This document shows positions 9,120 to 39,296 of a stretch of 43,376 nucleotides of DNA, piece by piece. The notes under the pieces were generated by a model. It worked only from the letters and a program-made list of their open reading frames with translations. It had not been told where the DNA came from and did not search any database. A program made the position numbers and the translations under genes. The stretch spans positions 1-43,376 of IMG/VR virus record IMGVR_UViG_3300046002_003911. The stretch is one strand, 5' to 3'. Source of the DNA: a virus. How positions within the stretch are numbered: the stretch's first letter is position 1; each line of letters opens with the position of its first letter.

Positions 9120-9314
9120 ATGACTGATTTTAACGAAAATGACGAACTGATCGAAGCTAACAATATCACTAATGAAAGTGTTAAGCGTACCAGAAGCAAA
9201 CCTGTTGTCGTTGTCGTAAATGGTAAGGCTCAATGGTACAAAGGGGCGACCATGGAAGACATGAAAAAGGTTGCTGACTTTCTAGGACTTGAGTTCAAGT
9301 TGAGCATAAAATGA
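9120..9314 (+). CDS. Small hypothetical protein, 64 aa
   Basis: AAAGGA precedes the ATG by about 8 bases. It has an acidic N terminus followed by a basic VKRTRSKPVVVVVNGKAQWY stretch and a C-terminal helix. The stop overlaps the start of the next gene (ATGA), so it is coupled to the putative base-modification enzyme. Function unknown. Confidence 0.65.
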   Translation: MTDFNENDELIEANNITNESVKRTRSKPVVVVVNGKAQWYKGATMEDMKKVADFLGLEFKLSIK

Positions 9315-10183
9315 CTGACTTGACTAAAGATCAGCAAACGCTCTTTTATTGGATAAAAGAGCGTGAGTCTATCCGCATTAAGAAAGAAGCGGGTGAACCT
9401 AAACCTTGGACTGAAAATTCAATTTTACAAAAGTTCAAATTCTGCAATGTTCGTAGAGAGGATGACACTGTAAGCAAGTGGATTACTGAGGAATGGATTA
9501 AACCAAACGACCCACATCCAAATATGTGGTTTGCAATGGTCGTTGCGCGTTTGTTCAATTGGCCTCCGACGTTAGAAGAGATTTGCTTTCCTCATTTGGA
9601 CTTCCTTGAATTGAAAGAAAAATGGCGGCGCAATCTCAAAGGTCTGCGTGATGATGCTGGTGCTAAGATCTTCACAGGTGCTTACCTTGTTTCAACCAAT
9701 GGTATAAGTATGGACAAGATTGACTATGTTCTTGACCGTGTATTGACGCCCATTTGGATGAACGGTCTTCCACCTTCACTTGTTGAAAAATACACAAAGA
9801 CTGATGAACCATTGCGTCTTGAAGAATATTGGAAACACTTAACTGAATTCGACGGTCTTGGTAGTTTCATGGCAGGACAAGTTGTTGCCGACCTAAAGTT
9901 CGCATCTGATTTAAAAGATGCACGCGATTGGATGACATGGGCACCTCTTGGCCCTGGGTCAATTCGCGGTTTGAACCGTTTTCATGGAAGAGATGTTAAT
10001 GCGACATTGAAACAGGAAGAAGGTCTCAAAGAAATGTTAGAAGCACAACAGTTGATCGCAGAAAACTTAGGGTTAGTACTACCAGTTCACAATGTGCAAA
10101 ATTGCTTTTGTGAATATGATAAGTATTTGCGTGTTAAGAATGGTGAAGGTCGCCCGCGTTCACTTTACCCAGGAGTCAAATAA
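9311..10183 (+). CDS. Alpha-glutamyl/putrescinyl thymine pyrophosphorylase-family protein (5-hmdU hypermodification)
   Basis: This 290-aa protein looks like the family called aGPT-PPlase or 5-hmdU DNA kinase helical domain. Those enzymes act on 5-hydroxymethyl-deoxyuridine in phage DNA and replace an activated hydroxymethyl group with an amino acid or polyamine. Seen here: the signature FCNVRRE (44-50) after a Lys/Trp-rich N terminus, a helix-hairpin-helix-like DNA-glycosylase-fold segment DGLGSFMAGQVVADL (181-195), WAPLGPGSIRGLNR (210-223) and a C-terminal NCFCEYDKYLR (264-274). The next gene is a thymidylate synthase homologue, the expected source of 5-hmdUMP. No separate P-loop 5-hmdU kinase was seen in this window. 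The family assignment rests on recalled motifs; the chemistry is inferred. Confidence 0.8.
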   Translation: MTDLTKDQQTLFYWIKERESIRIKKEAGEPKPWTENSILQKFKFCNVRREDDTVSKWITEEWIKPNDPHPNMWFAMVVARLFNWPPTLEEICFPHLDFLELKEKWRRNLKGLRDDAGAKIFTGAYLVSTNGISMDKIDYVLDRVLTPIWMNGLPPSLVEKYTKTDEPLRLEEYWKHLTEFDGLGSFMAGQVVADLKFASDLKDARDWMTWAPLGPGSIRGLNRFHGRDVNATLKQEEGLKEMLEAQQLIAENLGLVLPVHNVQNCFCEYDKYLRVKNGEGRPRSLYPGVK

Positions 10184-11154
10184 TGTTAACTATTAATGGA
10201 AACAATGTAAATGATATATTCCCAAGAGGTTTGAAACTCTTGAATGAAGAAGGTGTATTCCGGCCAAGTCGTAACGGCCCGACCATTGAAATAATGGAAC
10301 CAATTAGTGTCCGTTACAATTACCCAGATGAACGGGTTTTATTTGAACCATTGCGAGATTCCAACCCATTCTTCTCTTTGTTTGAATCGTTGTGGATGTT
10401 GGCGGGTAGAAGTGATGTTGCTTTTCTTGATCAATATAATAGTCAAATGAAGCAGTACAGTGATGACGGTAAAAGATTTAATGCCGCTTATGGGCAACGT
10501 CTTCGTTCAGCATTTGGTATTGATCAATTGGAAGCGGTTATACAACGCCTTAGAAAGAATCCTGATGATCGTCAAGCGGTATTGCAAATATGGGACGTTA
10601 ATGACCTTGAAAAAGAAACAAAAGACAGAGCTTGTAACCTTGTAATCACGCCGCGCATCCGCAAAGGTAAGTTAGATTGGACAGTTTTCAATCGTAGCAA
10701 TGATTATATCTACGGTATGTTGGGAGCCAATGCAGTACACATGTCGGTGATTCAAGAATATGTCGCTCGTATGGTTGGTGTGCCGATGGGTAGTTATGAA
10801 CAAATCAGTAATTGTATGCACGTTTACACAAAGTTGACACCACATTGGGAACGGTTGAAAGATCTACCTTTAGAAACCAACTGTCCTTATAAGTCAGCTA
10901 AGGTCACACCTTTTCCATTGATAACCAACAAGGAAAGTTGGATGTCTGATCTGTACACTTGGATGGATCAACCGTGGTCAGGTGTTCAATATGTTGACCC
11001 ATTCTTTGAGCATGTGACGAAGCCGATGGCTATTGCACACAAGGCACACAAGGACAACAATAATGGGTTAAAATACATCGGTGCCATTAAGGCATCCGAT
11101 TGGCGGTTAGCTTGTGAACAATGGTTAGCGAAAAGAGAAAATCATGTTGACTAA
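10183..11154 (+). CDS. Thymidylate synthase homologue (thymidylate synthase or dUMP hydroxymethylase)
   Basis: A 323-aa ThyA-fold protein. The probable catalytic Cys lies in DRACNLV (about 145-151), the NRSNDYIYG segment matches the phosphate/dUMP-binding RS.D region, and an Asn follows in GMLGANAVHMS. In this fold Asn at that position favours dUMP, whereas dCMP hydroxymethylases carry Asp. The family makes dTMP or, in hmU phages, 5-hydroxymethyl-dUMP from dUMP and methylene-tetrahydrofolate. Adjacency to the pyrophosphorylase-family gene favours the hydroxymethylase role. AGGAG lies upstream of the ATG, and the start abuts the previous stop (TAATG). Confidence 0.9.
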   Translation: MLTINGNNVNDIFPRGLKLLNEEGVFRPSRNGPTIEIMEPISVRYNYPDERVLFEPLRDSNPFFSLFESLWMLAGRSDVAFLDQYNSQMKQYSDDGKRFNAAYGQRLRSAFGIDQLEAVIQRLRKNPDDRQAVLQIWDVNDLEKETKDRACNLVITPRIRKGKLDWTVFNRSNDYIYGMLGANAVHMSVIQEYVARMVGVPMGSYEQISNCMHVYTKLTPHWERLKDLPLETNCPYKSAKVTPFPLITNKESWMSDLYTWMDQPWSGVQYVDPFFEHVTKPMAIAHKAHKDNNNGLKYIGAIKASDWRLACEQWLAKRENHVD

Positions 11155-13345: not shown

Positions 13346-15327
13346 CCGATAAACTCTTTCTAGATCTTGAAGTCTATCCGAACTACTTCCTTGCCAAGTT
13401 CATGAACGACGAGGGTCGTTTTCGTGAGTTTGAAATGTATGAAGGGCAAGGATTAGACGTTGCCAAACTTCGCGCACTGCTCAATTCGTACACTGTCGTT
13501 ACTTTCAACGGAAATAACTACGACTGGCCCATTTTGTCACTTGCCCTTAATGGTGCAGATAACGAACAGTTGAAAGAAGCATCCGACGCCATCATTGTCA
13601 ACGACATGAAACCTTGGAACTTCTACAAGCATTTCCGTTGTCAAGCGTTGAGCTATGATCACATTGACATCAAGGAAGTTGCACCTGGAGTCATGGTCAG
13701 TTTGAAGTTGTACGCAGGGCGGCTCCATGCGCCAAAGATGCAAGACCTACCTTACGACCCTGATTCATTGTTGACGCGTGAACAGATGCAAGCGGTCAAC
13801 TTGTATTGCGGTAATGACTTACATGTGACCAAACAACTGTATGATGCAATCAAAGGGCGCGTTACTTTGCGGGAAACTATGTCAGCAGAATACCGCACTG
13901 ACCTCCGCAGCAAGTCTGACGCACAAGTAGCCGAGGCAGTGATTAAGACTGAACTATTCCGGTTAACCAGTAAGAAACTTGCCAAACCTTCTGTAAAAGA
14001 AAAGCAGTTCTTTTACAAGGTTCCGGAGTACATGAAATTTGAATCTGACCAATTGAACAATGTGTTTGAAATGGTCAAGCGTAGCCCATTTACTGCTAAG
14101 ACCAACGGTCAAATTGAAATGACTGAGGAATTGGCTAACACGTTGATTCACATCAATGGTTCAACTTACAAATTGGGTATCGGTGGTTTACACAGTCAGG
14201 AAAGCGAAGTAAGTCATTTGGCTGACGATGAGTATATGATTGTTGACCGTGATGTCACTTCGTATTATCCTAGTATCATTTTAAACCAAGGACTGTACCC
14301 TGAGACCCTTGGCCCGCACCTGTTAGAAGTGTTCAAAGTTCTTGTTGATCGGCGTGTTGCTGCCAAGCGCAAGAATCGTGAGCTTAAGAAGTTAGGGGTA
14401 AAGGGTCACGTTCATAGGTCAAGTATTGAAAAGGCGAACGGTCTTGTGCATTTTAACAGCCTTGCTAAAGAAGAAATTGCAGACGGTGCAAGTTATAAAG
14501 AGGATCTTGTTCGAGTCACTCTAGAACAAGATATCGAATTTGACCGTTCTGTTACTGTTATGGATTCATTACGAATCACAATTAACGGGGCATTCGGCAA
14601 ATTAGGTTCTGTTTACTCTGCTTTGTACGCACCTGACCTTATGATTCAAGTTACCGTCACCGGACAGTTGACTTTGTTGATGTTGATTGAGCGTTTTGAA
14701 ATGGCAGGTATTAAAGTAATCAGTGCGAACACTGATGGTATTGTGACTCGTTACCCGCACTCAAGACATGAAGAAGTTGCTGCAATTGTAAAACAGTTCG
14801 AACAAGAAACAATGTTTGAATTTGAGGACACGCACTATTCTGGACTATATTCACGCGATGTGAACAATTATATCGCTATCAAACCTGATGGTGAGGTCAA
14901 GACCAAAGGTACGTTCAAAGCAGGCGACTTGCAAAAGAATACGCAGAACGATATCTGCAATGAAGCGTTGATTGCTTACTTGAAAAACGGTACGCCAATT
15001 GAAGAAACCATCCGCGCTTGTAAGGACATACGAAAGTTTGTAACGGTGCGGACTGTAAAAGGCGGTGGGGTACATGCTGGCAATTACCTCGGTAAAGTTG
15101 TTCGCTGGTTCTATGGCACAGATTCACTTGGCACAATCAATTATGTCAAATCAGGAAATAAAGTACCACGGACAGACGGGTGTATACCTTTAATGGATCT
15201 ACCTATTGACTTTCCAAATAATGTAGATTACAATTTTTATATTAACGAGGTAAACGATTTGTTGATGGATATTGGTTTAGTTGCTCGCCCACCTGTAGTT
15301 AAGAAAACAAGGAGTAAGAAAGCATGA
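13342..15327 (+). CDS. Family B DNA polymerase
   Basis: A 661-aa replicative polymerase with proofreading exonuclease. Exo I DLE (8-10), Exo II FNGNNYD (55-61) and Exo III YCGND (155-159) are intact. Polymerase motif A is DVTSYYPSI (304-312), motif B RITINGAFGKLGS (411-423) and motif C NTDG (463-466), where the usual DTDS is reduced to NTDG with one catalytic Asp kept. The protein is short compared with T4 gp43 (about 900 aa), as in compact phage PolB. No protein-priming TPR insertion was recognised. The stop overlaps the glycosyltransferase start. Confidence 0.93.
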   Translation: MTDKLFLDLEVYPNYFLAKFMNDEGRFREFEMYEGQGLDVAKLRALLNSYTVVTFNGNNYDWPILSLALNGADNEQLKEASDAIIVNDMKPWNFYKHFRCQALSYDHIDIKEVAPGVMVSLKLYAGRLHAPKMQDLPYDPDSLLTREQMQAVNLYCGNDLHVTKQLYDAIKGRVTLRETMSAEYRTDLRSKSDAQVAEAVIKTELFRLTSKKLAKPSVKEKQFFYKVPEYMKFESDQLNNVFEMVKRSPFTAKTNGQIEMTEELANTLIHINGSTYKLGIGGLHSQESEVSHLADDEYMIVDRDVTSYYPSIILNQGLYPETLGPHLLEVFKVLVDRRVAAKRKNRELKKLGVKGHVHRSSIEKANGLVHFNSLAKEEIADGASYKEDLVRVTLEQDIEFDRSVTVMDSLRITINGAFGKLGSVYSALYAPDLMIQVTVTGQLTLLMLIERFEMAGIKVISANTDGIVTRYPHSRHEEVAAIVKQFEQETMFEFEDTHYSGLYSRDVNNYIAIKPDGEVKTKGTFKAGDLQKNTQNDICNEALIAYLKNGTPIEETIRACKDIRKFVTVRTVKGGGVHAGNYLGKVVRWFYGTDSLGTINYVKSGNKVPRTDGCIPLMDLPIDFPNNVDYNFYINEVNDLLMDIGLVARPPVVKKTRSKKA

Positions 15328-16136
15328 TCAAAGTCTTTATCCCTACCTATAAACGGTTGAACCGCCAGCCCACGTTACAAGCGCTCAATGCTGCGGGGGT
15401 GGCTACGGTATTAATAGTGCGCCCAGAGGAAGCGCAAGGGGCTTTAGATTTGGCCCAGAGGTTAAATTTAGGTAACGCACAGTGTACTGTTTACACGTTA
15501 CCCGAAGGTATCACCAACCTTGCTCAAACGCGGCAAGTTTTGATGGAGAACGTTGAAGATGACGTGGTCTTCATGATGGATGATGACTTATCATTTGCCG
15601 TGCGTGGTAAACGTGCCGATAATCCTTTGTACTTATCGGCTGCTGAAGCAAGTGATGTTCAAGAGATGGTCAAACAAGTTTACTACCATTGTGAAAAGGA
15701 AGGTTTGGCAGGAGTCTCAATGCGTGAAGGTAATAACCGCAAAGAGGAAGAGGTTGAATATTGTTCACGCATGTGCCGCGCATGGGCAGTTCACATGCCG
15801 ACGTTCCGTGCAATCGGCGCAAAGTTTGAACAATACCCTTCCGTTGAAGACTTTGATATTACGTTACAATTCCTTCTAGCCGGTAAGCGTAACGCAGTCT
15901 TGAACAATTTCACAACGAATCAGTTCGGTTCCAATACTGAAGGTGGTTGTTCTGAATACCGCACGATGGATGTGCAAAAAGAAGCTGCTGAAGCATTGGC
16001 AAGGAAGTATCCGTTATTTGTGAAGACTGTTAGTAAAGAAACAAAAACGAAAGTCACTTGGGGTGGTCAAACCCGCATAGATGTTCATGTACAATGGAAG
16101 AAGGCTTATAAGGAAGGATTGAAAAATGTCAAATGA
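15324..16136 (+). CDS. TET-associated-type glycosyltransferase (DNA base glycosylation)
   Basis: A 270-aa GT-A-fold glycosyltransferase. It has the N-terminal nucleotide-sugar strand FIPTYKR (5-11), LPEGITNLAQTRQ (about 59-71), the metal-binding MMDDDLSF (about 88-95) and a C-terminal GGCSEYRT...WGGQTRIDVHVQWKKAY pattern. This is the arrangement I know from TAGT enzymes, predicted to glycosylate hydroxymethylated bases in phage DNA. No TET/JBP dioxygenase was seen here, so the hydroxymethyl base may come from the thymidylate synthase homologue. It overlaps the polymerase and the radical SAM gene, which puts modification and replication in one operon. Confidence 0.85.
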   Translation: MIKVFIPTYKRLNRQPTLQALNAAGVATVLIVRPEEAQGALDLAQRLNLGNAQCTVYTLPEGITNLAQTRQVLMENVEDDVVFMMDDDLSFAVRGKRADNPLYLSAAEASDVQEMVKQVYYHCEKEGLAGVSMREGNNRKEEEVEYCSRMCRAWAVHMPTFRAIGAKFEQYPSVEDFDITLQFLLAGKRNAVLNNFTTNQFGSNTEGGCSEYRTMDVQKEAAEALARKYPLFVKTVSKETKTKVTWGGQTRIDVHVQWKKAYKEGLKNVK

Positions 16137-17109
16137 TTACCAACAAGAACCACCGTTTGCAGTACAAGTAGAATTCACAGAAGGTTGTTCGTTATATTGC
16201 GACTTCTGCGGTCTTCGTGGTATTCGTGAGGGTGTTGGTGATTACAAATTCGCAACACCTGAAACGATTCAACGTATTGCTGATGAAATCAAACGATTAG
16301 ATTGGAATCCGCGTATTGAAATTGCCATGCGAGGTGAACCTTCAATGAATCCAAACTTTATTGAACTAGTTTCAATCCTTCGCAAGACCTTGCCTAAACA
16401 TCAGTTGATGATGACGTCAAATGGTAGTGGTTACATCAAAGCGGGGAATGTACAGAAGGTGTTTCAAGCAGGTCTAAACATTCTTGCGCTTGATAAATAT
16501 GAAGGTGTTGATTTTGTTGACCGTGCGTTGAAGAACTTGACAATCACTACAAATGACGCAGGTTTTAAAAATTGGGAAGGATTGCCGATTTATGATTATC
16601 CTGCGCAACCTGACGGTAATCCACATCGGCGCATCAAAGGTAAGATGATCAGTGTCATGCGCGACATTTCAATTGCTGACAAAGGGACGCATGCCAAGTT
16701 GTCAAATCATTGTGGAGCAGCATCTCCGTTGGACTATAGTAAAGAAGGGAAGAGATGCGCTCGCCCATTCCGCGAACTGTCGATTCACTACAATGGTGAC
16801 ATTGCTATTTGCTGCAACGCGTGGCGTGGGACATACGCTTGTGGTAACATAAACAAATTAGGGCTTGATGAAATTTGGCAGGGTAAGCCGTTTACCTTAG
16901 CTCGGAAGGCGCTGTATAACGGCCAGCGTACGTTCAAACCATGTTTAGGTTGTAATGCTACCAGCTACCGGGCGGGGTTCCTACCTGACAAGAAAGGTAA
17001 AGAATCGCTACCATTACCAACTGAAGCTGAGTGGATTGAGATTCACAAAATTGCCGAGGCACCTGCTTTGACACCGATTGTTTTTAGACCTTGGGAATTA
17101 AAGAAATGA
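16126..17109 (+). CDS. Radical SAM enzyme with SPASM-like C-terminal cysteines
   Basis: A 327-aa radical SAM protein. The 4Fe-4S/SAM motif CSLYCDFC (about 16-23) follows an EFTEGC strand. A GEP-like segment RGEPSMNP (about 69-76) fits the SAM amino-group contact. Further Cys at about 206, 226-227 and 272-275 (CARPF, ICCN, CLGC) are arranged like an auxiliary SPASM/twitch cluster. The substrate is unknown. It overlaps the glycosyltransferase, so it may rearrange or further modify a DNA base; radical SAM enzymes occur in some published phage thymidine-hypermodification pathways. Peptide or RNA modification are alternatives. Confidence 0.88.
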   Translation: MSNDYQQEPPFAVQVEFTEGCSLYCDFCGLRGIREGVGDYKFATPETIQRIADEIKRLDWNPRIEIAMRGEPSMNPNFIELVSILRKTLPKHQLMMTSNGSGYIKAGNVQKVFQAGLNILALDKYEGVDFVDRALKNLTITTNDAGFKNWEGLPIYDYPAQPDGNPHRRIKGKMISVMRDISIADKGTHAKLSNHCGAASPLDYSKEGKRCARPFRELSIHYNGDIAICCNAWRGTYACGNINKLGLDEIWQGKPFTLARKALYNGQRTFKPCLGCNATSYRAGFLPDKKGKESLPLPTEAEWIEIHKIAEAPALTPIVFRPWELKK

Positions 17110-18100: not shown

Positions 18101-18276
18101 CTGAAGAACAGTTGTTGATGCTAAGGGAATGGGTAAGAGCTGAAACAGTGGCAGGTGTGGCTGATAGAGAAATGGATAGTTGCGGTTACGTGTTGATAGC
18201 TCATGATCAACATAAAGCTGCTGATCATTTGTTTAGTAAATTGTGTGATTTATTGGAGAAGAAACATGGAAATTAA
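18097..18276 (+). CDS. Small helical hypothetical protein, 59 aa
   Basis: AAAGGAG precedes the ATG, and ATGA overlaps the previous stop. The product is helical and His-rich in the second half (LIAHDQHKAADHLFSKL). It overlaps the dUTPase start by 11 bases. Function unknown. Confidence 0.6.
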   Translation: MTEEQLLMLREWVRAETVAGVADREMDSCGYVLIAHDQHKAADHLFSKLCDLLEKKHGN

Positions 18277-18739
18277 ATATTTAGATGAACGGTTGAAAGA
18301 TTTCAAATTCGCACCGTCAACAGACTTATCCGCTGGTTATGACCTGAGGGCTTGTATTCCTGACATCTTGCATATCTACCCAAATGAAACAAAGAAGATA
18401 AAGACAGGTATTTCGTTACACATGGCAGATTTACTTAATGAAACAAAAGATAATGATTACAACGTCTTACCTTGTGCAATAATCATGCCACGTTCTAGCC
18501 TCGGTTGTAAAGGTTTGAAGCCAAGGAACTCACCCGGTTTAATTGACGCTGATTACCAAGGTGAAATTGTGATCTGTATGCACAATTATTCTGATGATCG
18601 TCTTGAGATTAAGCCAATGGAGCGTATCGCACAATTGGTTTTTATGGTAGCAATACACCCTGTGATCAAAGAAGTTTCAGAATTCTCTACTGAAACAGAA
18701 AGAGGTGATTCAGGTTTCGGAAGCACTGGGACACACTGA
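18266..18739 (+). CDS. dut: dUTPase (dUTP nucleotidohydrolase)
   Basis: A 157-aa trimeric-type dUTPase with all five motifs: I DLSAGYDLRA (about 20-29), II PRSSLG (about 76-81), III GLIDADYQGEI (about 91-101), IV PMERIAQLVF (about 118-127) and V RGDSGFGSTG (about 147-156). It converts dUTP to dUMP, lowering uracil incorporation and feeding the thymidylate synthase homologue. In a phage that may use hydroxymethyl-uracil it also keeps plain dU out of the DNA. The start at 18266 (ACATGG) is preferred over earlier in-frame codons because GGAGAAG lies upstream. Confidence 0.95.
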   Translation: MEIKYLDERLKDFKFAPSTDLSAGYDLRACIPDILHIYPNETKKIKTGISLHMADLLNETKDNDYNVLPCAIIMPRSSLGCKGLKPRNSPGLIDADYQGEIVICMHNYSDDRLEIKPMERIAQLVFMVAIHPVIKEVSEFSTETERGDSGFGSTGTH

Positions 18740-21319: not shown

Positions 21320-21633
21320 TGACAGAAATGAGAACTTGTCCGAAGTGTAAGACAACTCTTCCTAAGGATACCAAACATTTCATGTATTCTGAAAAGAGAG
21401 ATCAATATGGTTATTGTAAACCCTGTATGAAAGCCTACGAAAAAGCCAGATACAAAATGAAGATATCTGGTGCGGAGGAAGACGATGAAAGTGAAAACTT
21501 TAACGGTGTCTCCCGTTCGGTTACCGATAAAGGAACAGTACTTGTTAGATTCGGTAGGAACTACAATAAAGGTATCAACCGACCCAAAAGAATTGACCCT
21601 TGGCACGGTTTCGTTTGTTCAACAATGATTTAA
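21319..21633 (+). CDS. Zinc-ribbon protein, 104 aa
   Basis: The ATG at 21319 overlaps the ligase stop by one base. CPKC (about 7-10) and CKPC (about 33-36) with DQYGYCKPCMKAYEKARYK resemble the N-terminal zinc module that often precedes HNH or endonuclease VII domains, but no HNH His-Asn residues follow. It may be a remnant of such a nuclease or a stand-alone DNA-binding protein. The C-terminal half is basic and has no recognisable domain. Confidence 0.6.
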   Translation: MTEMRTCPKCKTTLPKDTKHFMYSEKRDQYGYCKPCMKAYEKARYKMKISGAEEDDESENFNGVSRSVTDKGTVLVRFGRNYNKGINRPKRIDPWHGFVCSTMI

Positions 21634-21635
21634 TT

Positions 21636-22199
21636 ATGAAACTGAATTGGCCAGATTTGACGTTTGATCCTATTAACCTATGGAACGTTCCTTACACGAG
21701 GATATATGAAATGCGACCTTCAAAACATGAAATGTGGTTGAATATTTGTAAACAGTTAGCGACACAAAGTACCTGTGTTCGTAAAGGAGTAGGGTGTGTC
21801 CTACTTGACAAGTATGGACACGTCTTATCAACGGGTTGGAATGGCGTGGCAGCAGGTAGACCTCACTGTAATGATCAAGTTATTCTTGAATTATATCATT
21901 CCGGGCAACAATCAAGTGAAGAATATTATCCTAATGCCTGCGAAGGTGCCAAATATGATAGCGGTGAAGGTTTGGGTAAATGCCGGGCAGTTCATGCTGA
22001 ACAGAATGCTTTGCTACAATGCCCAGACATAAACGCGGTACATACATGTTACACCACGGCTTCTCCTTGCGCTGAACAATGTACCAAACTTCTTTTGAAT
22101 ACATCATGCCAACGGATTATCTTCCTTGAAGAGTACAGTAAATCAGGTAAAGAAATGTGGTTAGAAGCAGGAAGAGAATGGATTCATTACAATGGCTGA
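21636..22199 (+). CDS. dCMP deaminase (ComE/deoxycytidylate deaminase family)
   Basis: A 187-aa zinc deaminase that converts dCMP to dUMP, the substrate of the thymidylate synthase homologue. It has HAEQNALLQ with the zinc His and catalytic Glu (about 119-127) and PCAEQC (about 143-148) with two zinc Cys. A long insertion of about 40 residues lies between VLLDKYGHVLSTGWNG and the HAE motif, as in T4-type enzymes. The start at 21636 lies 2 bases after the previous stop; an ATG at 21711 with GAGG upstream is an alternative that removes 25 residues. It fits a pathway enriching (hydroxymethyl)dUMP. Confidence 0.9.
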   Translation: MKLNWPDLTFDPINLWNVPYTRIYEMRPSKHEMWLNICKQLATQSTCVRKGVGCVLLDKYGHVLSTGWNGVAAGRPHCNDQVILELYHSGQQSSEEYYPNACEGAKYDSGEGLGKCRAVHAEQNALLQCPDINAVHTCYTTASPCAEQCTKLLLNTSCQRIIFLEEYSKSGKEMWLEAGREWIHYNG

Positions 22200-31013: not shown

Positions 31014-31072
31014 TTGTAAAGAACAGCGTGCAGGTTTACTATTTGTGTGCCGCAATTTTAGCGGTAAATTTT
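31014..31072 (+). promoter_or_regulatory. Promoter with 5' leader hairpin
   Basis: TTGTAA (31014-31019), 17-bp spacer (AGAACAGCG...), TACTAT (31037-31042). The leader folds as GTGCCGC...GCGGTAA (about 31047-31068) before AAAGGTG. Near-copy of 28939-28995. Confidence 0.82.
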
Positions 31073-31913: not shown

Positions 31914-33074
31914 TCAAACAAGGCCGTTAAAGGCTTTCCAACGGTCAATGGCTTGTAACTCAATGCGGCGCATCCCGTGGAAATTATCATTCTTTTCATA
32001 GTCGAAATAGACGTCTTGTTCATCTTTGGTCATTATGAGCCAGCAACCAAGGTGAGGACTACCCTTACGTTCTATCTCCGCGCGGGTCATAGATTTCAAC
32101 AGTTCATTAAAGGTGCAATGTTGTGTCAACCATTCGGCACGATTGGCATCCTTTTGCGCCTGTATGAAGTCTTCGTAGCTGGTGTCGCGGTACATATCCT
32201 TACATGCTAAAGCAGATTCAAAAGCAATCTTATCTTTGAAGTATGCGCCGTCAACTTCGTACAAGTGGTGAGATACAGTATTATCATTAATTGGATCGGC
32301 GTTGTCATTAGGTATGAGATTTACTTTGTTCTCAGCGGAATGATCAAGTTCAATGATATCGTTCTCAATCAAGGCTTCAATCAAACGTAATCTCACGGCG
32401 CGGGTGTTATCGGTATTAATACCGCGTATCAAACGGAAGTTTGAAAACATCAGCAACATCGCACGCAATATTTCGGATTGACCAAGTGAGGAAGAATACA
32501 GGTCAATATCTACTTTAGAACGGATGTCTTTTAGCGCATCAATAATTGGCGCAATCTGGTTGGTCATGTGTCCAGCGTAATCAATTGGTGATTCGATCAT
32601 TGCAAAAGCCTGAGGAACATGAGCGGTGATTGTTACGTTTGCAGTGTTCAAATCAATTTCAACAGTACTTATGTCAACATCTTTCAAATCGGCAGTGACT
32701 GGGAACTCTTTGTAAAAGACACCTTGATGTTCAATTGATTGAAACAGAGCGCCGAAAGGTATCACAGTGCGACGGCCAATGCGAATGAATCGTTTACCAT
32801 CTGGTTCAACATCTTTATTCACGCCGAACAATAAAACAAAATTGTTAATGGTTTCAAATTGATGAGTGTGCGTACCAGCTCGTTTGAATTCGGGTGTACG
32901 CATGAAACTTGTACCCGTTTCATAGTATTTGAGTTTGTGCTTCAAAATACTTGATTGAGAATATTTCAAATCTTTGCGGGCCAATAGAGGAATCAGTTCG
33001 CGATTCTCATCTAGTGAGAAATGGATCTTGATCTTCTTGTACATACCGAATGAGGCGTTTGGGTCGTAGGTCAT
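31914..33074 (-). CDS. Unidentified leftward protein, 386 aa
   Basis: It has its own promoter (33126-33154), the ribosome binding site CTAAAGGAAAC and a shared bidirectional terminator, so it forms a single-gene unit. The N-terminal half is strand-rich (RFIRIGRRTVIPFGALFQS; VEIDLNTANVTITAHV), followed by a helical part (AIRLRLIEAL-like, DNTRAVRLRLIEALIENDI) and an acidic C terminus. No catalytic motif, membrane segment or known family was recognised. It is the largest gene here without a family. Its isolation beside the hub suggests a regulatory, host-interaction or accessory role, which is inference. Confidence 0.8.
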   Translation of the reverse strand: MTYDPNASFGMYKKIKIHFSLDENRELIPLLARKDLKYSQSSILKHKLKYYETGTSFMRTPEFKRAGTHTHQFETINNFVLLFGVNKDVEPDGKRFIRIGRRTVIPFGALFQSIEHQGVFYKEFPVTADLKDVDISTVEIDLNTANVTITAHVPQAFAMIESPIDYAGHMTNQIAPIIDALKDIRSKVDIDLYSSSLGQSEILRAMLLMFSNFRLIRGINTDNTRAVRLRLIEALIENDIIELDHSAENKVNLIPNDNADPINDNTVSHHLYEVDGAYFKDKIAFESALACKDMYRDTSYEDFIQAQKDANRAEWLTQHCTFNELLKSMTRAEIERKGSPHLGCWLIMTKDEQDVYFDYEKNDNFHGMRRIELQAIDRWKAFNGLV

Positions 33075-33125
33075 ATTGTTTCCTTTAGGTTGAGTTCACG
33101 GCCTTAACATTGACCGTTGCCAGTT

Positions 33126-33154
33126 ATTTTAACAAGGTTTAATAGTTGATGCAA
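33126..33154 (-). promoter_or_regulatory. Leftward sigma70-like promoter
   Basis: On the minus strand: TTGCAT (33149-33154), 17-bp spacer, TAAAAT (33126-33131). A small leader hairpin (ACGG...CCGT) follows before the ribosome binding site. Same architecture as the rightward early promoters. Confidence 0.75.
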
Positions 33155-33240
33155 TGGTTAATTGTTCGCTCGGGTAAGTGGGTAGTGGGGTTTTGAGGTG
33201 TTATATAGGTCTTACTAAGTTTAGGCATTAAACGGTCTAC

Positions 33241-33360
33241 TTGTAAGTTTAACTTTTATTATTGCCAGCCAAAAAGTGCAAAACAAAAAAGTCGGCATAT
33301 ATTAGTAAGGTAAAGTTACAAAGTCGGGGTTATGTGTTTGTTTTTGTTAGGTGGAGTTTT
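33241..33360 (+). repeat. Dispersed direct repeat A, right copy
   Basis: Bases 33241-33274 match 448-481 with one mismatch. The similarity continues loosely through a stem-loop (GCC...GGC) to TTGTTTTTGTTAG near 33340. Confidence 0.8.
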
Positions 33361-33385
33361 AAAGTTTGAATAGTGCGATTTGAGG

Positions 33386-33473
33386 TTTTAAGGACACTTT
33401 GTTACCAAATGGTAACATTGCCTAAAAAATAGGCAAAATGGGCTAATAACCTTATAAGGTGTCGTCCTTAAAA
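33386..33473 (+). other. Multi-hairpin element (closing stem with three internal stems)
   Basis: TTTTAAGGAC (33386-33395) pairs with GTCCTTAAAA (33464-33473). Inside are GTTACC/GGTAAC (33401-33406/33411-33416), TTGCCTA/TAGGCAA (33418-33424/33430-33436) and the palindrome CCTTATAAGG (33450-33459). It could be a structured RNA or a cruciform-forming origin element. The following 230 bases to the terminator at 33736 hold no convincing gene. Confidence 0.6.
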
Positions 33474-33705
33474 ACTACATGTATACCCTCTAATATTAGG
33501 TTTAGAGGATATATTGAATTGACTGTATTAAGGGTAAATGGTACAAAAATGATGCAAGAATGCAACACTTTTGTTGAATATGCTCTACCTTATAAGGGTA
33601 TTTGTTGGTTTTAAGGGGTTGCCCCCATGCAAAAGCGGTCAGTTATATCGAGTTTTTTAGCGAGTACATGATGCACAAAAACAACAGTTTTAAGACTGTT
33701 TTGTT

Positions 33706-33736
33706 GAGTGTTGCGTTGTTGCAACACTCTTTTCTT
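33706..33736 (+). terminator. Rho-independent terminator in the hub
   Basis: GAGTGTTGC (33706-33714) pairs with GCAACACTC (33721-33729), followed by TTTTCTT. No gene lies close upstream, which suggests that it ends an untranslated transcript covering the multi-hairpin element. Confidence 0.8.
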
Positions 33737-33747
33737 ATTTTGATCTT

Positions 33748-33990
33748 GTTTCACTGTCACTCAGCCTTTTAAAATAGTATATATTATTCTTATTTATTGG
33801 ACGATTTGACCGACTATGGTTGGAGTTGTGACATTGGTTAGAGCAAGATTGGATTATACGCGAATTGATATTATGTTGACCCCCCCCTGATCAAAATCGA
33901 TTGGATTATACGCGAGTTGTCCTTGTCACTCAGCCTTTTCAAAATCATTTATTTGACTCTTCAAATCGGTTGATTGAGACGACTATGGTG
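33748..33990 (+). repeat. Dispersed direct repeat B, copies 2 and 3
   Basis: Copy 2 (33748-33846) starts GTTTCACTGTCACTCAGCCT and ends TTGGTTAGAGCAA, like 661-759. Copy 3 (33924-33990) keeps TGTCACTCAGCCTTTT and GAGACGACTATGGTG. The copies alternate with the iteron-like repeats. Confidence 0.75.
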
Positions 33991-34086
33991 AGAGTGTCGT
34001 TATTTGATTATACGCGAATTGATATTATGTTGACCCTGATCACTGCCGATTTGATTATACGCGAATTTGATTATACGTGATTTGAT
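33852..34086 (+). repeat. Iteron-like repeats GATTATACGYGA
   Basis: Five copies of GATTATACG(C/T)GA start at about 33852, 33904, 34005, 34053 and 34069. Two copies extend identically through ATTGATATTATGTTGACC. A related TTATACGCG occurs at about 375. The region may be a replication origin or the binding site of an initiator or regulator; the sequence alone does not decide. Confidence 0.7.
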
Positions 34087-34118
34087 ATGACGTGAGACCA
34101 GATAGAACAGATTTTGGC

Positions 34119-34220
34119 AATAGTACGTTTGTACTATTGTTTGGCTAGCATACATTTACCCGCTTGGCAATAGTACAAACATACTATAGTACGTTTGTAC
34201 CACCAACAAATAGTACAAAA
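34119..34220 (+). promoter_or_regulatory. Operator-like array of TAGTACAAAC/GTTTGTAC sites
   Basis: CAATAGTAC-GTTTG-TACTATTG (about 34119-34140) is an inverted repeat. AATAGTACAAAC (about 34169-34180), TAGTACGTTTGTAC (about 34187-34200) and AATAGTACAAAA (about 34210-34221) repeat its half sites in both orientations. The array lies just upstream of the promoter of the 207-aa gene, so an autoregulator or host factor could bind here. Confidence 0.65.
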
Positions 34221-34247
34221 AACATGCACTAACTTGTTGGTGCAGGT

Positions 34248-34280
34248 TATTATTTGTGTGCCGCAATTGGCGGCGCAACC
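34248..34280 (+). promoter_or_regulatory. Promoter -10 with 5' leader hairpin
   Basis: TATTAT (34248-34253) is followed by GTGTGCCGC...GCGGCGCA (about 34256-34277), as in the other cassettes. No good -35 is found at 17 bp, so the unit may need an activator or use the repeats upstream. Confidence 0.6.
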
Positions 34281-34295
34281 AAACAGGTAAACAAA

Positions 34296-34919
34296 ATGCA
34301 AGCTACTAAAGGCAACACCAAAAGCAAAGCTACGAAACAGGTTGTTACGTTTAACAATGGCTTAACGGCAAATACTGCCGCGCCTATAGGCGTGCAAACA
34401 AATAACGGCTTGCCGGTGCAGTTTACCGCGCCGCAAAATAGCATGGCTGCAATGGCCCAAACTATAATGGCCGAAACAATTAAACCCGTTACAAGTGGGC
34501 GTAACGTAGGTTTTATTAGTTTTATAAACGGTTGGCCTAATGGCGTGCCGGTTGCAAACATGCAACCGCTAACTATTAACGGCGAGTTATTTAATGGCAA
34601 TATTGCGCACACTAACCCAGTGTGCAAAGCATACGTTAGCGGTAAAGCACAATCGGCAAACGTGCCAGCCTTTAAACAAAGCAACCAATTGGTTAAGTTG
34701 GGCAAAAAAGCCCCGCCTAACAATAGCAGTAATGTAACCAATGCTATATTCGGCCAAGCGGTAAATGCAGCATTTACCGCCAATGGCGGTAAGCCAATAA
34801 CATTAGGCGCATTGGCGCAAGCTTGTGCTAACGCAGGCGGTAGCGGCGCAATGCCGAATGTAATACCGTGGTTAGTACAACACGCATACGGCCGCACGCA
34901 TTGGCTAGTAAATGCGTAA
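34296..34919 (+). CDS. Unidentified protein without aspartate, 207 aa
   Basis: The ATG at 34296 follows an ACAGGT ribosome binding site in the standard leader cassette, and a terminator lies 25 bases after the stop. This is the main support for coding, because the absence of TGA and TCA makes long frames less informative here. The protein has no Asp, only two Glu, 12 Lys, 2 Arg and about 26 Asn. All Ser are AGC/AGT and all Phe TTT. The N terminus is basic (QATKGNTKSKATKQ). The C-terminal third (PITLGALAQACANAGG, then VIPWLVQHAYGRTHW) looks like a folded helical domain, possibly helix-turn-helix. The missing acidic residues follow directly from the DNA-level lack of GA. No family recognised. 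Confidence 0.65.
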   Translation: MQATKGNTKSKATKQVVTFNNGLTANTAAPIGVQTNNGLPVQFTAPQNSMAAMAQTIMAETIKPVTSGRNVGFISFINGWPNGVPVANMQPLTINGELFNGNIAHTNPVCKAYVSGKAQSANVPAFKQSNQLVKLGKKAPPNNSSNVTNAIFGQAVNAAFTANGGKPITLGALAQACANAGGSGAMPNVIPWLVQHAYGRTHWLVNA

Positions 34920-35001
34920 ACAATAACCGTTATTGTTTACAACAAAGCGGGCATTGCCCGCTTTTATTTTGCCTTGCAAATAATAATGGTTATTGTTTGC
35001 A
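34919..35001. repeat. Inverted repeats flanking the terminator
   Basis: AACAATAACCGTTATTGTT (34919-34937) is itself a palindrome. AATAATGGTTATTGTTTGC (about 34983-35000) repeats its right half in near-identical form. The pair brackets the terminator and could mark the end of a mobile segment. Confidence 0.55.
34944..34965 (+). terminator. Rho-independent terminator
   Basis: AAAGCGGGC (34944-34952) pairs with GCCCGCTTT (34956-34964), with T-rich sequence after it. It ends the 207-aa gene unit. Confidence 0.92.
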
Positions 35002-35020
35002 ATAGCGTATCGGCACAATG

Positions 35021-35123
35021 CACGCCAGCACGCCAGCACGCCAGCACGCCAGCACGCCAGCACGCCAGCACGCCAGCACGCCAGCACGCCAGCACGCCAG
35101 CACGCCAGCACGCCAGCACGCCA
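35021..35123 (+). repeat. Octamer minisatellite CACGCCAG, about 12.9 copies
   Basis: Twelve perfect copies of CACGCCAG plus seven bases of a thirteenth, without interruption. There is no spacer, so it is not a CRISPR array. Eight is not a multiple of three, so a chance ORF across it cycles through three peptides; it is judged non-coding. DGA/TCH are absent here too. Confidence 0.95.
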
Positions 35124-35386
35124 CGGCCTAGGCTACCCTACATGCTACCCACTTGCGTACACGCATGGCCCATTGTGGTGCGTTACAGCCCTATGTTACA
35201 TATTGCAACGCGTTGTAAGGTGGCATGGCCTATGCTATAGCAAGTACCGTGCCAACTGCTATAGTACATACATACTAGCGAAGGGGCCAAGCAAGTACCG
35301 TGCCAGCCGTGGTGGTACAGGCGTACTAGCGACGGGCATACCACCTGGTTTTAAAAGGCGATGGGTCCCATAGGGTAACTACCTAG

Positions 35387-35509
35387 CTTATACCCTGTCG
35401 ACATTTTATCAGTCTTTGATTGCTTATACCCTGCCAACAATTATCAGTTAAGACATTTATCAGTCTTTTGATTACTTATACCCTGCCGATATTTTTATCA
35501 GTCGCTACG
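35387..35509 (+). repeat. Three imperfect tandem repeats CTTATACCCTG...TTATCAGTC
   Basis: Units begin at 35387, 35423 and 35475 with CTTATACCCTGYC and contain ATTTATCAGTC. The middle unit is longer, with an extra ATTATCAGTTAAGAC. They lie upstream of the terminase operon, so they could be regulatory sites for late transcription or a packaging signal. A shorter direct repeat (GAAGTGTT) follows at about 35519 and 35541. The stretch from 35124 to 35386 holds no convincing gene. Confidence 0.75.
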
Positions 35510-35589
35510 TGTTATTAAGAAGTGTTGACTATCGGTTGAGAAGTGTTACCCCCCGATCATTTGTATATCAAAACACTCATATCAAAAAT

Positions 35590-35618
35590 TTTAAAAATTT
35601 CAAAATTTGTGTTATAAT
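35590..35618 (+). promoter_or_regulatory. Promoter of the packaging operon (weak -35)
   Basis: TATAAT (35613-35618) with only TTTAAA (35590-35595) 17 bp upstream, in an A/T-rich stretch. It may depend on an activator, as late promoters often do. Confidence 0.55.
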
Positions 35619-35662
35619 TGGATAAAAGAAGATTGGTTAATCTTCGTAACAAAGGAATCGAC

Positions 35663-36307
35663 ATGGCACGCTCAAGAAAACCCAAATTCAATAGTAATGA
35701 TAAAGACGCACCGCCGCCATTCGTGCTAGGTGACGACTTTGTACCGAACGTTGTCAAACCGTACAGTGAATACCCTAAACAGTTCGATGCCGAAGGTAAT
35801 CCATTGGCTCAAGTTGAACAAACTGAAATTCAAGGACTTGGTCGCGATCCTTTGGTTGCTCAGTATATGTTGCCAGAATGGTCAAAGAACATAAGCGAAG
35901 CGATGATCAACAACGCGAACATCAAAGGGAGTCCAGGATTTGACCCGGGTTATGAACAAGCCAAGCAAGTAGAACAAATGACCGCATTGGGCCTCAGTGT
36001 CCAAGACATCGCCGCGACATTGAGAATTGAACCTAAGCTACTTGAAAAGTATTATCAGTACGAGATTGACACATCTGCCCAACGTATCAACCAAGCCGTT
36101 GCAAAGATTGCCCTCCAAAGCGCCCTCGGAGGCGATACGGATATGGTGAAGTTCTGGTTGAAAACACGCGCCGGATGGAAAGAGACAAAGGTCACCGAAT
36201 TGACCGGATCCAATGGTGGTCCTGTTTTATTCTCCGAAGTCAAGCAGAACTTCCTTAGTGCAATCGAAGCCGAGATCACCGATGTTGATTATGAGGACTC
36301 GAAATGA
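35663..36307 (+). CDS. terS: Terminase small subunit-like protein
   Basis: A 214-aa protein directly upstream of the large terminase. Residues about 104-125 form a helix-turn-helix (TALGLSVQDIAATLRIEPKL), the DNA-binding part that recognises the packaging site. The region after it (AQRINQAVAKIALQSALGG) is helical, as in the oligomerisation domain. The N terminus is basic and disordered (ARSRKPKFNSNDK). AAAGGA is upstream of the ATG at 35663; the upstream TTG in frame overlaps the promoter. An ATGA overlap leads to the next gene. Confidence 0.8.
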   Translation: MARSRKPKFNSNDKDAPPPFVLGDDFVPNVVKPYSEYPKQFDAEGNPLAQVEQTEIQGLGRDPLVAQYMLPEWSKNISEAMINNANIKGSPGFDPGYEQAKQVEQMTALGLSVQDIAATLRIEPKLLEKYYQYEIDTSAQRINQAVAKIALQSALGGDTDMVKFWLKTRAGWKETKVTELTGSNGGPVLFSEVKQNFLSAIEAEITDVDYEDSK

Positions 36308-36447
36308 CCATCGACGAACTCGAAATGATTATCGACGAACTCATTGTTTCTGTTGATAACTATGTTCCAACAGAATCCGATATCAGAGATATTGAACCAA
36401 CAAAAGAAATAACGAACGATTGGCTTAATATTGAGTACACGATATGA
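36304..36447 (+). CDS. Tiny acidic protein between the terminase genes, 47 aa
   Basis: ATGA overlaps at both ends (with the small and the large terminase) argue for translation. The product is acidic (TIDELEMIIDELIVSVDNY), with an internal direct repeat of ATCGACGAACTC in the DNA. It may be a chaperone-like or regulatory peptide, or only a translational coupler. Confidence 0.6.
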   Translation: MTIDELEMIIDELIVSVDNYVPTESDIRDIEPTKEITNDWLNIEYTI

Positions 36448-39296
36448 GTGACAAATATGTCCTAAAGTCGACTGACAAACCGTCAATCGAATACCTCAGT
36501 GCAAGAGAGAAGTTTGATACGCTTCCTGCGAGAAAACGCGCAGAGATGATTCGTGCAATGTCAGACGAAGACGCTGCCAAACTCCAATATGATTGGGAAT
36601 TCCTTGGTCGACCGAAACAACTTGCTCCAGATCATAAGAAGTCAAAAGCGACATCATATTGCATGTGTCGTTATTTGAAAGCGCAAAGTCAGACAGACAA
36701 AAAATTAAAGATCGAGAGTTTTCCTAGTTGCCACCAACACGAAAAGCTTGAAGGCGAAAAAACTAACGTCATAATCACTTACGAACCTCCATCAGAAGAC
36801 GGATGGAAACCAATCCAGCATCTAAAGCCAGATGTATGGATCAAGGAAGTACCGAATCCTAATGACGAAGTTTGCGAGTTCCGCAAGCAATGGGCAACGT
36901 GGATCTTATTGGCTGGAAGGGGGTTCGGAAAAGCGTCCTTAATTACTACACCTATTCCAACTGTATCCGGCTGGAAAAAACTTGGAGAAATAGTTGACGG
37001 CGACGTTATTTTCGATGAAAAAGGTGAATTGACAACTGTTATCAAAGCTCATGAATCTTATGTAACCGATGATATCTATGAAGTTACTTTTTCAGACAAA
37101 TCCAAACTCACTGTTGATGGGCAACACCTTTGGACTGTTTGGGAACATTTAGATTGCAAACAATATGGTAGATACGACACCTCTGTAGACAGAGGTGTTT
37201 TTCCAAATGACTGGGCGACTTTCTCAGGTGATAAATACGATTGTTATCGAAATATTGTCGGTAGTTATGGAGCAAAAACATTTACGACTGAAGAATTGAA
37301 AACCCGGTTATCAAAGGTTCCAAGGATACCTTTGACCGCACCTTTGAACTTACCCAATATCGAATTACCTATAGATCCGTGGGTTCTAGGTTATTGGTTA
37401 GGTAATGGTGATTCAAAATCTGGAGGAGTTCACACTGGTTCTCACAACGGCGTTACCGATTTTGAATTCGTTAAATCTAAATTCTTAGAAGCAAGCTACG
37501 AAGTGACGAAAGAACGATCTGATTCTAAAAGAGATGACGTCAGAACTTTCTGTGGTCACATATTCAGCAACGATCTAAATGTTCTTTTGAAAGAAAACAA
37601 TCTTTTAGGTGATAAACACGTTCCTTCTGTTTATTTGCGAGCCTCTATATATCAAAGATTGTCGTTGTTAAAAGGTTTGATGGATTCAGACGGATATCCT
37701 GGTAATGACAATAATTTCGTAGGGTTCAGTTCAACAATAAAAGCTCTTTCAGACGCCGTTTTTGAACTTGCTGTTTCTTTAGGTGAAAAACCACTTAGAA
37801 ACGAAGGTTATGGTGTTCTTTATGGCATTGAAAAGAAATATAATTGGGGTGTTTCTTATCGCCCAAACATTATTCCGTTCGATTTACCTAGAAAGCGAAA
37901 TCGTATCACTCTTCCTGAAACAGGTCACCAAGGTCTTCGCCATAAACATCGTATAATAAAGAAGATAGAAAGAACTGCAAAAGGTGAAGTGAGGTGTCTT
38001 ACTGTAGATTCACCTAGTCACCTGTACTTGTTGGGTGAATCAATGATTCCGACACATAACACTCGTGTCGGCGCAGAATGGATCCGTGAAATGGTTGAAA
38101 CGGGTCAATCTAGACGTGCAGCGGTTATTAGTCCTACAGCTTCAGACGCTCGTGATGTAGCTGTTGAAGGTCAGTCTGGACTTGTTAGCGTATGTCCTCC
38201 ATGGAACAGGCCTCTTTATGAATCAACCAAACGTCGCGTAACATGGAGTAATGGGGCGCAGGCGAGTTTGTTTTCTGCTGAAGAACCTGAGCGGTTACGC
38301 GGGCCACAATTTGATGCAGCATGGATAGATGAAATTGCAGGATTTGACGTCAATACGCAGCAAATGGCTTTCGATATGCTTCAATTCTGTTTGCGTTTAG
38401 GTAATAACCCGCGATGCGTCGTAACGACGACGCCGAAACCCACTCCATTGATCCAGCAGTTGGTCAAATTGGCACGGCATCCGATCAATAAGATCATCAT
38501 TACGACAGGTTCTACTTACGAGAATAAGACCAATCTCGCTGCACCATTCATGCGGCAGATTACACAATATGAAGGAACAAACCTTGGTCGTCAAGAGATC
38601 TACGCAGAATTGATTGATATTGAGGAATCTGGTATATTGAAACGCTCTTGGTTCAAACAATGGCCTGCGAAGAAAGCGATGCCGGTCATTGAATTCGTCA
38701 TTCAGTCATACGACACAGCGTTTACTGAAAGCACTGAAAATGACCCGACTGGGTGCGTGACATTTGGCGTATTCCGCCCATCTCCCGATGAACCTCATTG
38801 TGTTATGATTCTCGATTGTTGGACTGATCGTTTGAAATACCCAGAACTCCGTAACAAAGCTATTGAAGAATACAAATGCACTTATGGAGATCAAGAGGCG
38901 CCTGTTGATATGTTATTGATTGAGGACAAGGGTTCTGGTATTCCTTTGATACAAGACTTACAACGGGCAGGCTTACCTATACGCAAATATAATCCAGGGC
39001 GACCAGATAAAACAATGCGCCTCCATGCTGTATCTCACCTTGTTTACAACGGGCGCGTTTATATTCCCGAAAGCAAACAAGTTCCAGGAGAATTTGTCAC
39101 ATGGGCTGAAGATTATTTACGAGAGGTTTGTGCGTTCCCTAACAGTCCTCATGACGAATTCGTTGACGTAACAAGTCAGGCTTTAGCAGTCTTCCGTGAC
39201 CAGGAATGGCTTAGTATAGACCCTGTAGTTAAACGAGATGAAGAAGATACTGATTCGTGGGAAAACAATGTTTACCGTAATCCTTATGACTCGTAA
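36444..39296 (+). CDS. terL: Terminase large subunit with an intein
   Basis: A 950-aa precursor. After removal of a 376-aa intein (164-539) a 574-aa terminase remains. The ATPase has Walker A GRGFGK-T, split by the intein after Lys163, Walker B AWIDE (about 624-628) and the TTTPKPT coupling motif (about 665). The nuclease has Asp in YDTAFTES (about 756), IEDKG (about 832) and Asp in SPHDEFVD (about 901-908). It powers DNA translocation into proheads and cuts the concatemer. Splicing is needed to restore Walker A, so packaging depends on it. Confidence 0.95.
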   Translation: MSDKYVLKSTDKPSIEYLSAREKFDTLPARKRAEMIRAMSDEDAAKLQYDWEFLGRPKQLAPDHKKSKATSYCMCRYLKAQSQTDKKLKIESFPSCHQHEKLEGEKTNVIITYEPPSEDGWKPIQHLKPDVWIKEVPNPNDEVCEFRKQWATWILLAGRGFGKASLITTPIPTVSGWKKLGEIVDGDVIFDEKGELTTVIKAHESYVTDDIYEVTFSDKSKLTVDGQHLWTVWEHLDCKQYGRYDTSVDRGVFPNDWATFSGDKYDCYRNIVGSYGAKTFTTEELKTRLSKVPRIPLTAPLNLPNIELPIDPWVLGYWLGNGDSKSGGVHTGSHNGVTDFEFVKSKFLEASYEVTKERSDSKRDDVRTFCGHIFSNDLNVLLKENNLLGDKHVPSVYLRASIYQRLSLLKGLMDSDGYPGNDNNFVGFSSTIKALSDAVFELAVSLGEKPLRNEGYGVLYGIEKKYNWGVSYRPNIIPFDLPRKRNRITLPETGHQGLRHKHRIIKKIERTAKGEVRCLTVDSPSHLYLLGESMIPTHNTRVGAEWIREMVETGQSRRAAVISPTASDARDVAVEGQSGLVSVCPPWNRPLYESTKRRVTWSNGAQASLFSAEEPERLRGPQFDAAWIDEIAGFDVNTQQMAFDMLQFCLRLGNNPRCVVTTTPKPTPLIQQLVKLARHPINKIIITTGSTYENKTNLAAPFMRQITQYEGTNLGRQEIYAELIDIEESGILKRSWFKQWPAKKAMPVIEFVIQSYDTAFTESTENDPTGCVTFGVFRPSPDEPHCVMILDCWTDRLKYPELRNKAIEEYKCTYGDQEAPVDMLLIEDKGSGIPLIQDLQRAGLPIRKYNPGRPDKTMRLHAVSHLVYNGRVYIPESKQVPGEFVTWAEDYLREVCAFPNSPHDEFVDVTSQALAVFRDQEWLSIDPVVKRDEEDTDSWENNVYRNPYDS
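36933..38060 (+). mobile_element. Ala1-type intein with LAGLIDADG homing endonuclease
   Basis: 376 residues between Lys163 and Thr540 of the terminase precursor. It starts with Ala (ASLITTPIPTVSGWKKLGEI) instead of Cys or Ser and ends in PTHN, followed by Thr at +1. Endonuclease motifs are WVLGYWLGNGD (about 312-322) and LLKGLMDSDGY (about 408-418). Ala1 inteins splice without the first N-S/O shift. The insertion in the P-loop (GK/T) is a favourite intein site in phage terminases. Confidence 0.92.

Follow-up and report, generated by a model that had tools for sequence, protein, structure and literature searches.

The stretch of DNA analysed here (the window; 43,376 nucleotides, positions 1 to 43,376 of IMG/VR record IMGVR_UViG_3300046002_003911) belongs to an uncultured phage and contains, just 5' of the terminase genes, an island (34110–35365) in which the words DGA and TCH do not occur at all. 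This exclusion of GA/TC is a confirmed observation: it is conserved in relatives of the phage, relaxed in some of them, and accompanied by genes of a base-modification pathway. On balance, we favor reading the island as a zone exempt from modification that surrounds a packaging-initiation site or a replication origin, in a genome where the T of TC would otherwise bear a bulky modification.

Between 34109 and 35366, the window contains a run of 1,257 bp free of DGA and TCH, the second-longest such run anywhere in the window being 174 bp. The longest run in first-order Markov simulations (n = 200) never exceeded 109 bp, and log10 E is about −56 under a simple hazard model. Ten GA/TC dinucleotides are left inside the island, every one of them within CGA/TCG, and the rule amounts essentially to exclusion of the GA/TC dinucleotide. 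Indeed, when eight islands were pooled (6,702 bp; the pool counts both L007 and L031, which are nearly identical phages), 24 GA/TC dinucleotides were observed versus 837 expected. The exclusion is total in coding, intergenic and repeat DNA and applies to both strands: in six islands divided by part, the first open reading frames (ORFs) hold 11 GA/TC versus 369 expected and the 3' part 5 versus 165, while the additional ORFs of L039 hold none versus 55 expected. Outside the island, GA and TC occur in the window at 1.05 and 0.97 of expectation, respectively. A kilobase of functional DNA, coding DNA included, that lacks one dinucleotide on either strand goes beyond the usual sequence bias.

The island contains one ORF on the forward strand, which starts with ATG at 34296, ends with TAA at 34919 and encodes a 207-aa protein; the first-pass annotation was right about these limits, about the length of the protein and about its location within GA-less DNA. 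The protein bends far to the DNA-level rule, the whole gene being nearly devoid of codons for acidic residues: it contains no Asp and two Glu, along with 26 Asn, 12 Lys and 2 Arg, whereas 13 other genes of the window average 6.2% Asp and 7.6% Glu. The excess of Asn that had been noticed is genuine (12.6% versus 4.8% in the 13 genes), but the supposed gain of Lys is not (5.8% versus 7.1%). Synonymous sites are constrained besides the protein composition: the ORF holds 6 GA+TC, whereas the protein, when recoded 2,000 times with the codon usage of the phage, gave a median of 43 (range 27–61). Serine is encoded by AGY nine times and by TCN once, none of the 10 Ile codons is ATC and none of the 20 Gly codons is GGA.

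Relatives were found by searching with the large terminase, the edge sequence GGCGATGGGTCCCAT and the small terminase (terS), and form a small clade made up entirely of IMG/VR contigs; a terS search of bacterial genomes returned no relative. Uncut strict islands lie just 5' of terS in five lineages, namely the window, L031 (1,105 bp), L038 (721 bp), L039 (1,572 bp) and L074 (716 bp for GA/TC, 766 bp for DGA/TCH), giving a size range of 0.7–1.6 kb. Four further strict islands (L007, L032, L033 and L042) are clipped at the contig end, and those of L040 and L043 are strict except for one and two DGA/TCH words, respectively; L041, L075, L176 and L177, which have too little or no sequence 5' of terS, were omitted from the counts. 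In the L039 island (926–2496), three ORFs of 170, 77 and 59 aa follow one another, none of them with any GA/TC; counterparts of the two extra ones were not noticed in the window island. Because the island occupies the same place in diverged relatives, selection is indicated. A substitution test on L031 and L007 was uninformative (4 substitutions in 820 columns, for 1.2 new GA/TC expected).

The island is relaxed in four other relatives, L034/L044 (one phage, G012), L035–L037, L169 and L175: a gene is found at the same place, and GA occurs at about 0.15–0.7 of expectation. The ORFs concerned encode two Asp and six Glu in both L034 and L035, four Glu in L175, and neither residue in L169. Since homologues from relaxed islands carry acidic residues, the DNA and not the protein is under constraint, as the first-pass annotation had proposed. 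By contrast, the predicted dominance of Glu-to-Lys differences between homologues did not materialize. The L175 protein is 52% identical to that of L038 over 96 aa, and the columns of its four Glu in L038, L169, L074 and L043 (16 cells) contain Ala 7 times, Asn 2, Gln 2, Pro 1, Ile 1 and a gap 3 times, but never Lys. Neither is a high Asn content universal (26 of 207 residues in the window protein versus 9 of 173 in L038, with 30 and 45 Ala, respectively). As far as the alignment goes, the replacements look like what base composition permits, not like deamination.

What is kept across ten sequences is not the ORF but the layout of the non-coding half of the island, 3' of the terminator described below. 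This half comprises, in order, tandem repeats whose unit varies, a dyad around ATGTTGCA..TGCAAC, GTAC palindromes, GGCATGG..CGTGCC and the edge GGGTCCCAT. In the window, repeat searches delineated 13 perfect copies of the 8-bp tandem repeat GCACGCCA (35020–35123); they are followed by the conserved non-coding 3' half (35141–35362), with a dyad near CCCTATGTTACATATTGCAAC (35189) and imperfect 51-bp repeats (35239–35336), and by the palindrome ATGGGTCCCAT (35361–35371), which forms the right edge of the island and has GGGTCCCAT at the same place in several relatives. The right end lies about 300 bp 5' of terS, a placement found in the relatives as well. An Rfam scan of 33000–36500 gave nothing at gathering scores.

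The 5' end of the island is marked by a cluster of inverted repeats of the ATAGTACGTTTGTACTAT type (34114–34200, repeat search). The leader of the island gene (34240–34268, forward strand) has a second copy at 31028–31057, before another phage gene; the two are 93% identical over 30 bp, with AGGTGAACAAAATG directly 3' of the 31028 copy and AGGTAAACAAAATG directly 3' of the island copy. The ORF had been credited with a promoter cassette, an operator-like array and a terminator of its own. Of these, the terminator is retained, as a pattern-matched intrinsic-terminator-like hairpin with a 9-bp stem and a T-run (34944–34964, forward strand), but no sigma-70-like promoter was found 5' of the ORF on the same strand. 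Operator-like repeats (33900–34093) do occur, but outside the island and with GA in them; an array of ATTTGATTATACGCGAATT-type repeats that contains GA covers 33850–34095, immediately left of the island.

The genes that bear on base modification are all on the forward strand of the window. They encode an HMUDK_hel protein (9311–10183; PF18723, 2.9e-42), i.e. the helical domain of 5-hydroxymethyl-deoxyuridine (5-hmdU) DNA kinase, called 'aGPT-Pplase1' in Pam3; a thymidylate-synthase family protein, probably a dUMP hydroxymethylase (10183–11154), which appears from its 44% identity over 333 columns to be a homologue of YuA gp17, annotated as a putative deoxyuridylate hydroxymethyltransferase; a TAGT glycosyltransferase (15324–16136; PF20691, 4e-12); and, as identified by Pfam scan, a radical SAM/SPASM (rSAM) protein adjoining TAGT (16126–17109), a dUTPase (18203–18739) and a dCMP deaminase (21600–22199). 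HMUDK_hel is present in 5 of the 14 records searched (G000, G002, G007, G009 and G012), the other 9 being contigs of 7–17 kb.

The modification cassette differs among these phages. TAGT is paired with rSAM in the window phage and in G002/L031 (L085, which matches G002 at 100% over 5,591 bp, holds TAGT and the start of rSAM), and with an FkbM methyltransferase in G007 and G009. In G012, a GT1-like glycosyltransferase, an APH-like protein and a cytidylyltransferase are found, without TAGT. Judging by these gene contents, all four strict-island phages with a readable cassette have TAGT, and the one readable relaxed-island phage lacks it; in all, 4 of 23 records hold it, the contigs of other lineages being too short to tell. 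Only TAGT, among the window ORFs of at least 90 aa, is shared by G007, G002 (with the L085 extension) and G009 while missing from G012. HMUDK_hel, the primase, the helicase and the polymerase are all present in G012, which weighs against any of them being the sole cause. The dCMP deaminase occurs in the window, G007 and G009 (with one in-frame stop) but not in the G002 fragment. The modification genes were seen to swap between the polymerase and PD-(D/E)XK nuclease genes (window 15324–17109; L060 7427–8948; L062 3619–4997; L058 19367 to L059 2263).

Gene content and the published TG/TC context, TC/GA being the word missing here, form the core of our interpretation, from which we infer that TC is the modified context, that TAGT performs the relevant step and that the island has a packaging or origin role. 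The phage would put 5-hmdU into its DNA instead of thymidine, and a larger group, most likely a sugar transferred by TAGT, would then be added to T in the TC context. Purging TC/GA from 0.7–1.6 kb beside the terminase genes would keep both strands free of the bulky group, which would otherwise block the DNA contacts of a binding protein. With one to three small genes and a conserved non-coding element (short tandem repeats, dyads, ATGGGTCCCAT), the bare stretch would be a packaging-initiation site or a replication origin, accompanied by a protein that binds it. The island does adjoin the terminase genes, as a packaging site might. On the side of a possible replication origin, tandem repeats and dyads are seen, with a repeat unit that varies among relatives; the GC skew changes at the island, and the helix-turn-helix model of the island protein is of low confidence.

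The known systems offer partial parallels. According to excerpts of PMC6449724, the restriction sites that resist cleavage in M6, ViI and phiW-14 have TG or TC in common, which indicates that the hypermodified T lies in these dinucleotides; the 5-hmdU kinase is proposed there to set this specificity. In the same paper and in PMC5977210, T replacement in M6/YuA, ViI and phiW-14 is partial, with the TG/TC context reported; like the window phage, these phages have dUMP hydroxymethylase-like and HMUDK_hel homologues (YuA). The window phage differs from them by its TAGT with rSAM (or FkbM in relatives) and in that no P-loop kinase, aGPT-Pplase2 or Nmad5 was found, while YuA and phiW-14 lack a dinucleotide-free island in the portions examined. 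The TAGT of T6-like phages belongs to the same Pfam family of DNA sugar transferases; its substrate, in the excerpted text of PMC13390438, is glucosylated hydroxymethyl-cytosine, whereas the gene set of the window points to hydroxymethyl-uracil. As for packaging, sites are often near terminase genes, the pac site of 9g having been mapped near its terminase gene (PMC5567051, in part). P1 pac, which is Dam-regulated, likewise lies near the terminase and is a packaging site to which modification state matters (cited in the excerpted part of PMC6449724); P1 pac, however, contains and uses modification sites, as far as that source goes, whereas the island is purged of them over a kilobase, genes included. 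No published precedent for such an island was found in the openly licensed literature searched.

Several observations weigh against the modification-exempt zone. That this DNA is modified is a prediction from gene content. The published context is TG and TC, yet the island avoids TC only, TG/CA being enriched (1.29). Searched by tblastn (cutoff 0.01), neither the window nor the relative pieces examined matched the P-loop 5-hmdU kinase, YuA gp13, Pam3 aGPT-Pplase2 or Nmad5; because this kinase partner and the other known pathway genes were not found, the pathway differs from that described in other phages. No comparable island, for any dinucleotide, is present in the 41–50 kb examined of each of four cultured phages that have HMUDK_hel homologues (YuA, Pam3, Sonora and RHph_TM26). 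The same holds for the examined parts of phiW-14 (50 kb out of 157) and CAjan (50 kb out of 60), the latter having no GA/TC-free island. Relaxed islands remain GA-poor. The association of TAGT with the island is based on four strict and one relaxed phages; the dCMP deaminase is likewise absent from G012, and the partially relaxed L169 shares its sample with a TAGT contig (L077/L094), perhaps of the same phage. Finally, the structure models of the island protein are poor, with a predicted local distance difference test score (pLDDT) of 42 for the window protein and 40 for that of L034.

The same data bear on what else could have emptied the island of GA/TC. It is possible, though unlikely, that the exempt zone is instead an immediate-early operon, the whole transcription unit being kept unmodified because host RNA polymerase must read it from fully modified virion DNA. 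The rule does span whole genes, including the three L039 ORFs, and the island comes with a leader and a terminator of its own; but the rule also extends about 400 bp past the terminator through the conserved non-coding element, GA/TC is normal in coding DNA elsewhere, and the missing sigma-70-like promoter is not what an early operon would lead one to expect. Less likely still is selection by a nuclease or defense system reading TC/GA (host restriction, a CRISPR protospacer-adjacent motif or a phage nuclease) for site-free DNA, for example in the first-entering stretch. Loss of a short word from both strands fits avoidance of a cutter, but the rest of the phage would still be cut, since GA/TC frequency is normal there, and restriction enzymes with a two-base recognition word are not known to us. 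When phages avoid restriction sites, they usually do so genome-wide and for words of 4–6 bp; the island resembles such avoidance in word loss but is local, absolute and limited to two bases, and GA/TC is not depleted in the window outside it. We also regard as improbable a priming-free zone, in which the phage primase reads TC and primer sites are excluded around an origin or terminus. The window phage encodes a primase, phage primases recognize short words that can include TC, and the GC skew (about 0.1–0.2) falls to near zero at the island in the window, G007 and G012 (also listed as the window, L038 and L044). G012, however, has a primase 89% identical to that of the window and yet a relaxed island with many GA/TC.

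The two explanations offered by the first-pass annotation fare worst, and we give either of them very little credence. A TC-directed deaminase or similar mutational process, removing GA/TC through C-to-T changes, finds an echo in the leader, one copy of which differs from the other by GA to AA, but it is contradicted by composition: G+C is higher in the island (48%) than in the remainder of the window (40%), and the Glu residues of L175 correspond to Ala, Asn, Gln, Pro or Ile, never to Lys. In the pooled islands, GC occurs at 1.97 of expectation, TA at 1.50, CA (TG/CA) at 1.29 and AA (AA/TT) at 1.23. By our own arithmetic, a ban on GA/TC alone would yield about 1.8, 1.8, 1.3 and 1.3, respectively, so that directional mutation need not be invoked. 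The other proposal, that the product of the ORF is a nuclease or toxin cutting at DGA/TCH, with its own gene protected by site loss, has nothing in its favor besides the exclusion itself. The rule covers the non-coding half and the three L039 ORFs too, the rest of the phage contains many sites, the protein matches no family, and a metal-dependent nuclease would hardly be expected to have almost no acidic residues.

The remote-homology search and structure prediction that had been suggested for the island protein brought no family match. The protein found no match in the phages, plasmids or viral contigs searched, nor in Pfam or PHROGs. Phages were also searched at the DNA level and with the L034 protein, again with no match, and an 8-member scan gave weak single-member PHROG matches only. 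A fold search with the pLDDT-42 model yielded one match, judged meaningless, and a profile search against solved structures yielded three weak ones, taken as chance. Both the window protein and that of L034 are modelled with a low-complexity N-terminal part followed by a C-terminal three-helix end with a short hairpin. This end may, at low confidence, be helix-turn-helix-like, and our guess would be that the protein binds DNA at the adjoining site.

We also surveyed control genomes. Among 53 terL relatives outside the clade, 17 of which reach at least 2.5 kb 5' of the nuclease domain (domain start at 3500 or later), none has a dinucleotide-free island, the longest GA/TC-free run being 68 bp. 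Neither an island nor TAGT was found in the 25–28 kb examined of ctpbd312 and Caulobacter RW, whose large terminases are related. Short runs only were seen at 80 polymerase loci, with marginal GA/TC runs of 107–211 bp in L115, L120, L127, L156, L157 and L162, and runs of other words too. Because the control phages lack it, the island is specific to this clade and its modification set rather than to 5-hmdU phages generally. A general intergenic depletion of GA in the clade was rejected as weak, the observed/expected ratio being 0.67–1.03 in intergenic versus 1.04–1.14 in coding DNA; in six cultured phages it is 0.89–1.32 versus 0.98–1.35. Deazaguanine modification at GA was also rejected. CAjan-type phages carry dPreQ0 at GA, the very dinucleotide avoided in the island, but the window proteins scanned against Pfam gave no match to a deazaguanine gene (DpdA or Que).

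We put at about even the chances of a broader proposition, namely that context-specific hypermodifying phages can keep kilobase modification-exempt islands by purging their own modification word, to the point of recoding genes and forgoing Asp and Glu, and that a region for packaging or replication is thereby left bare within a genome modified elsewhere. If true, the specificity of the modifying enzyme could be read off the avoided word without any data beyond the sequence, and that of uncharacterised DNA-modifying enzymes would be predictable from genomes. Such islands would also mark cis-acting sites intolerant of bulky bases, and would bear on the partial, non-random placement of thymine hypermodification.

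The remainder of the window encodes a DNA polymerase (phrog_1252), a primase, a helicase, both terminase subunits and a portal protein. The small terminase (phrog_309) is encoded at 35663–36307 and the large one, by PHROG match, in a 950-aa frame at 36444–39296, both on the forward strand; the PHROG and cultured-phage matches of the latter are only partial, as though something had inserted. A 21-bp tandem repeat spans the end of terS (36297–36342). A second, smaller GA/TC-poor spot (226–575, GA at 0.24 of expectation) precedes the helicase gene at 1271, and spots before the SNF2-type helicase gene also occur in L058 (5851–6300), L063 (8626–8925) and L062 (19201–19475), the ratios for all four being 0.24–0.36. 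A GA-poor element (TTTAACTTTTATTATTGCCAGCC...) stands in two similar copies between genes of the window, at 399–573 and 33236–33353.
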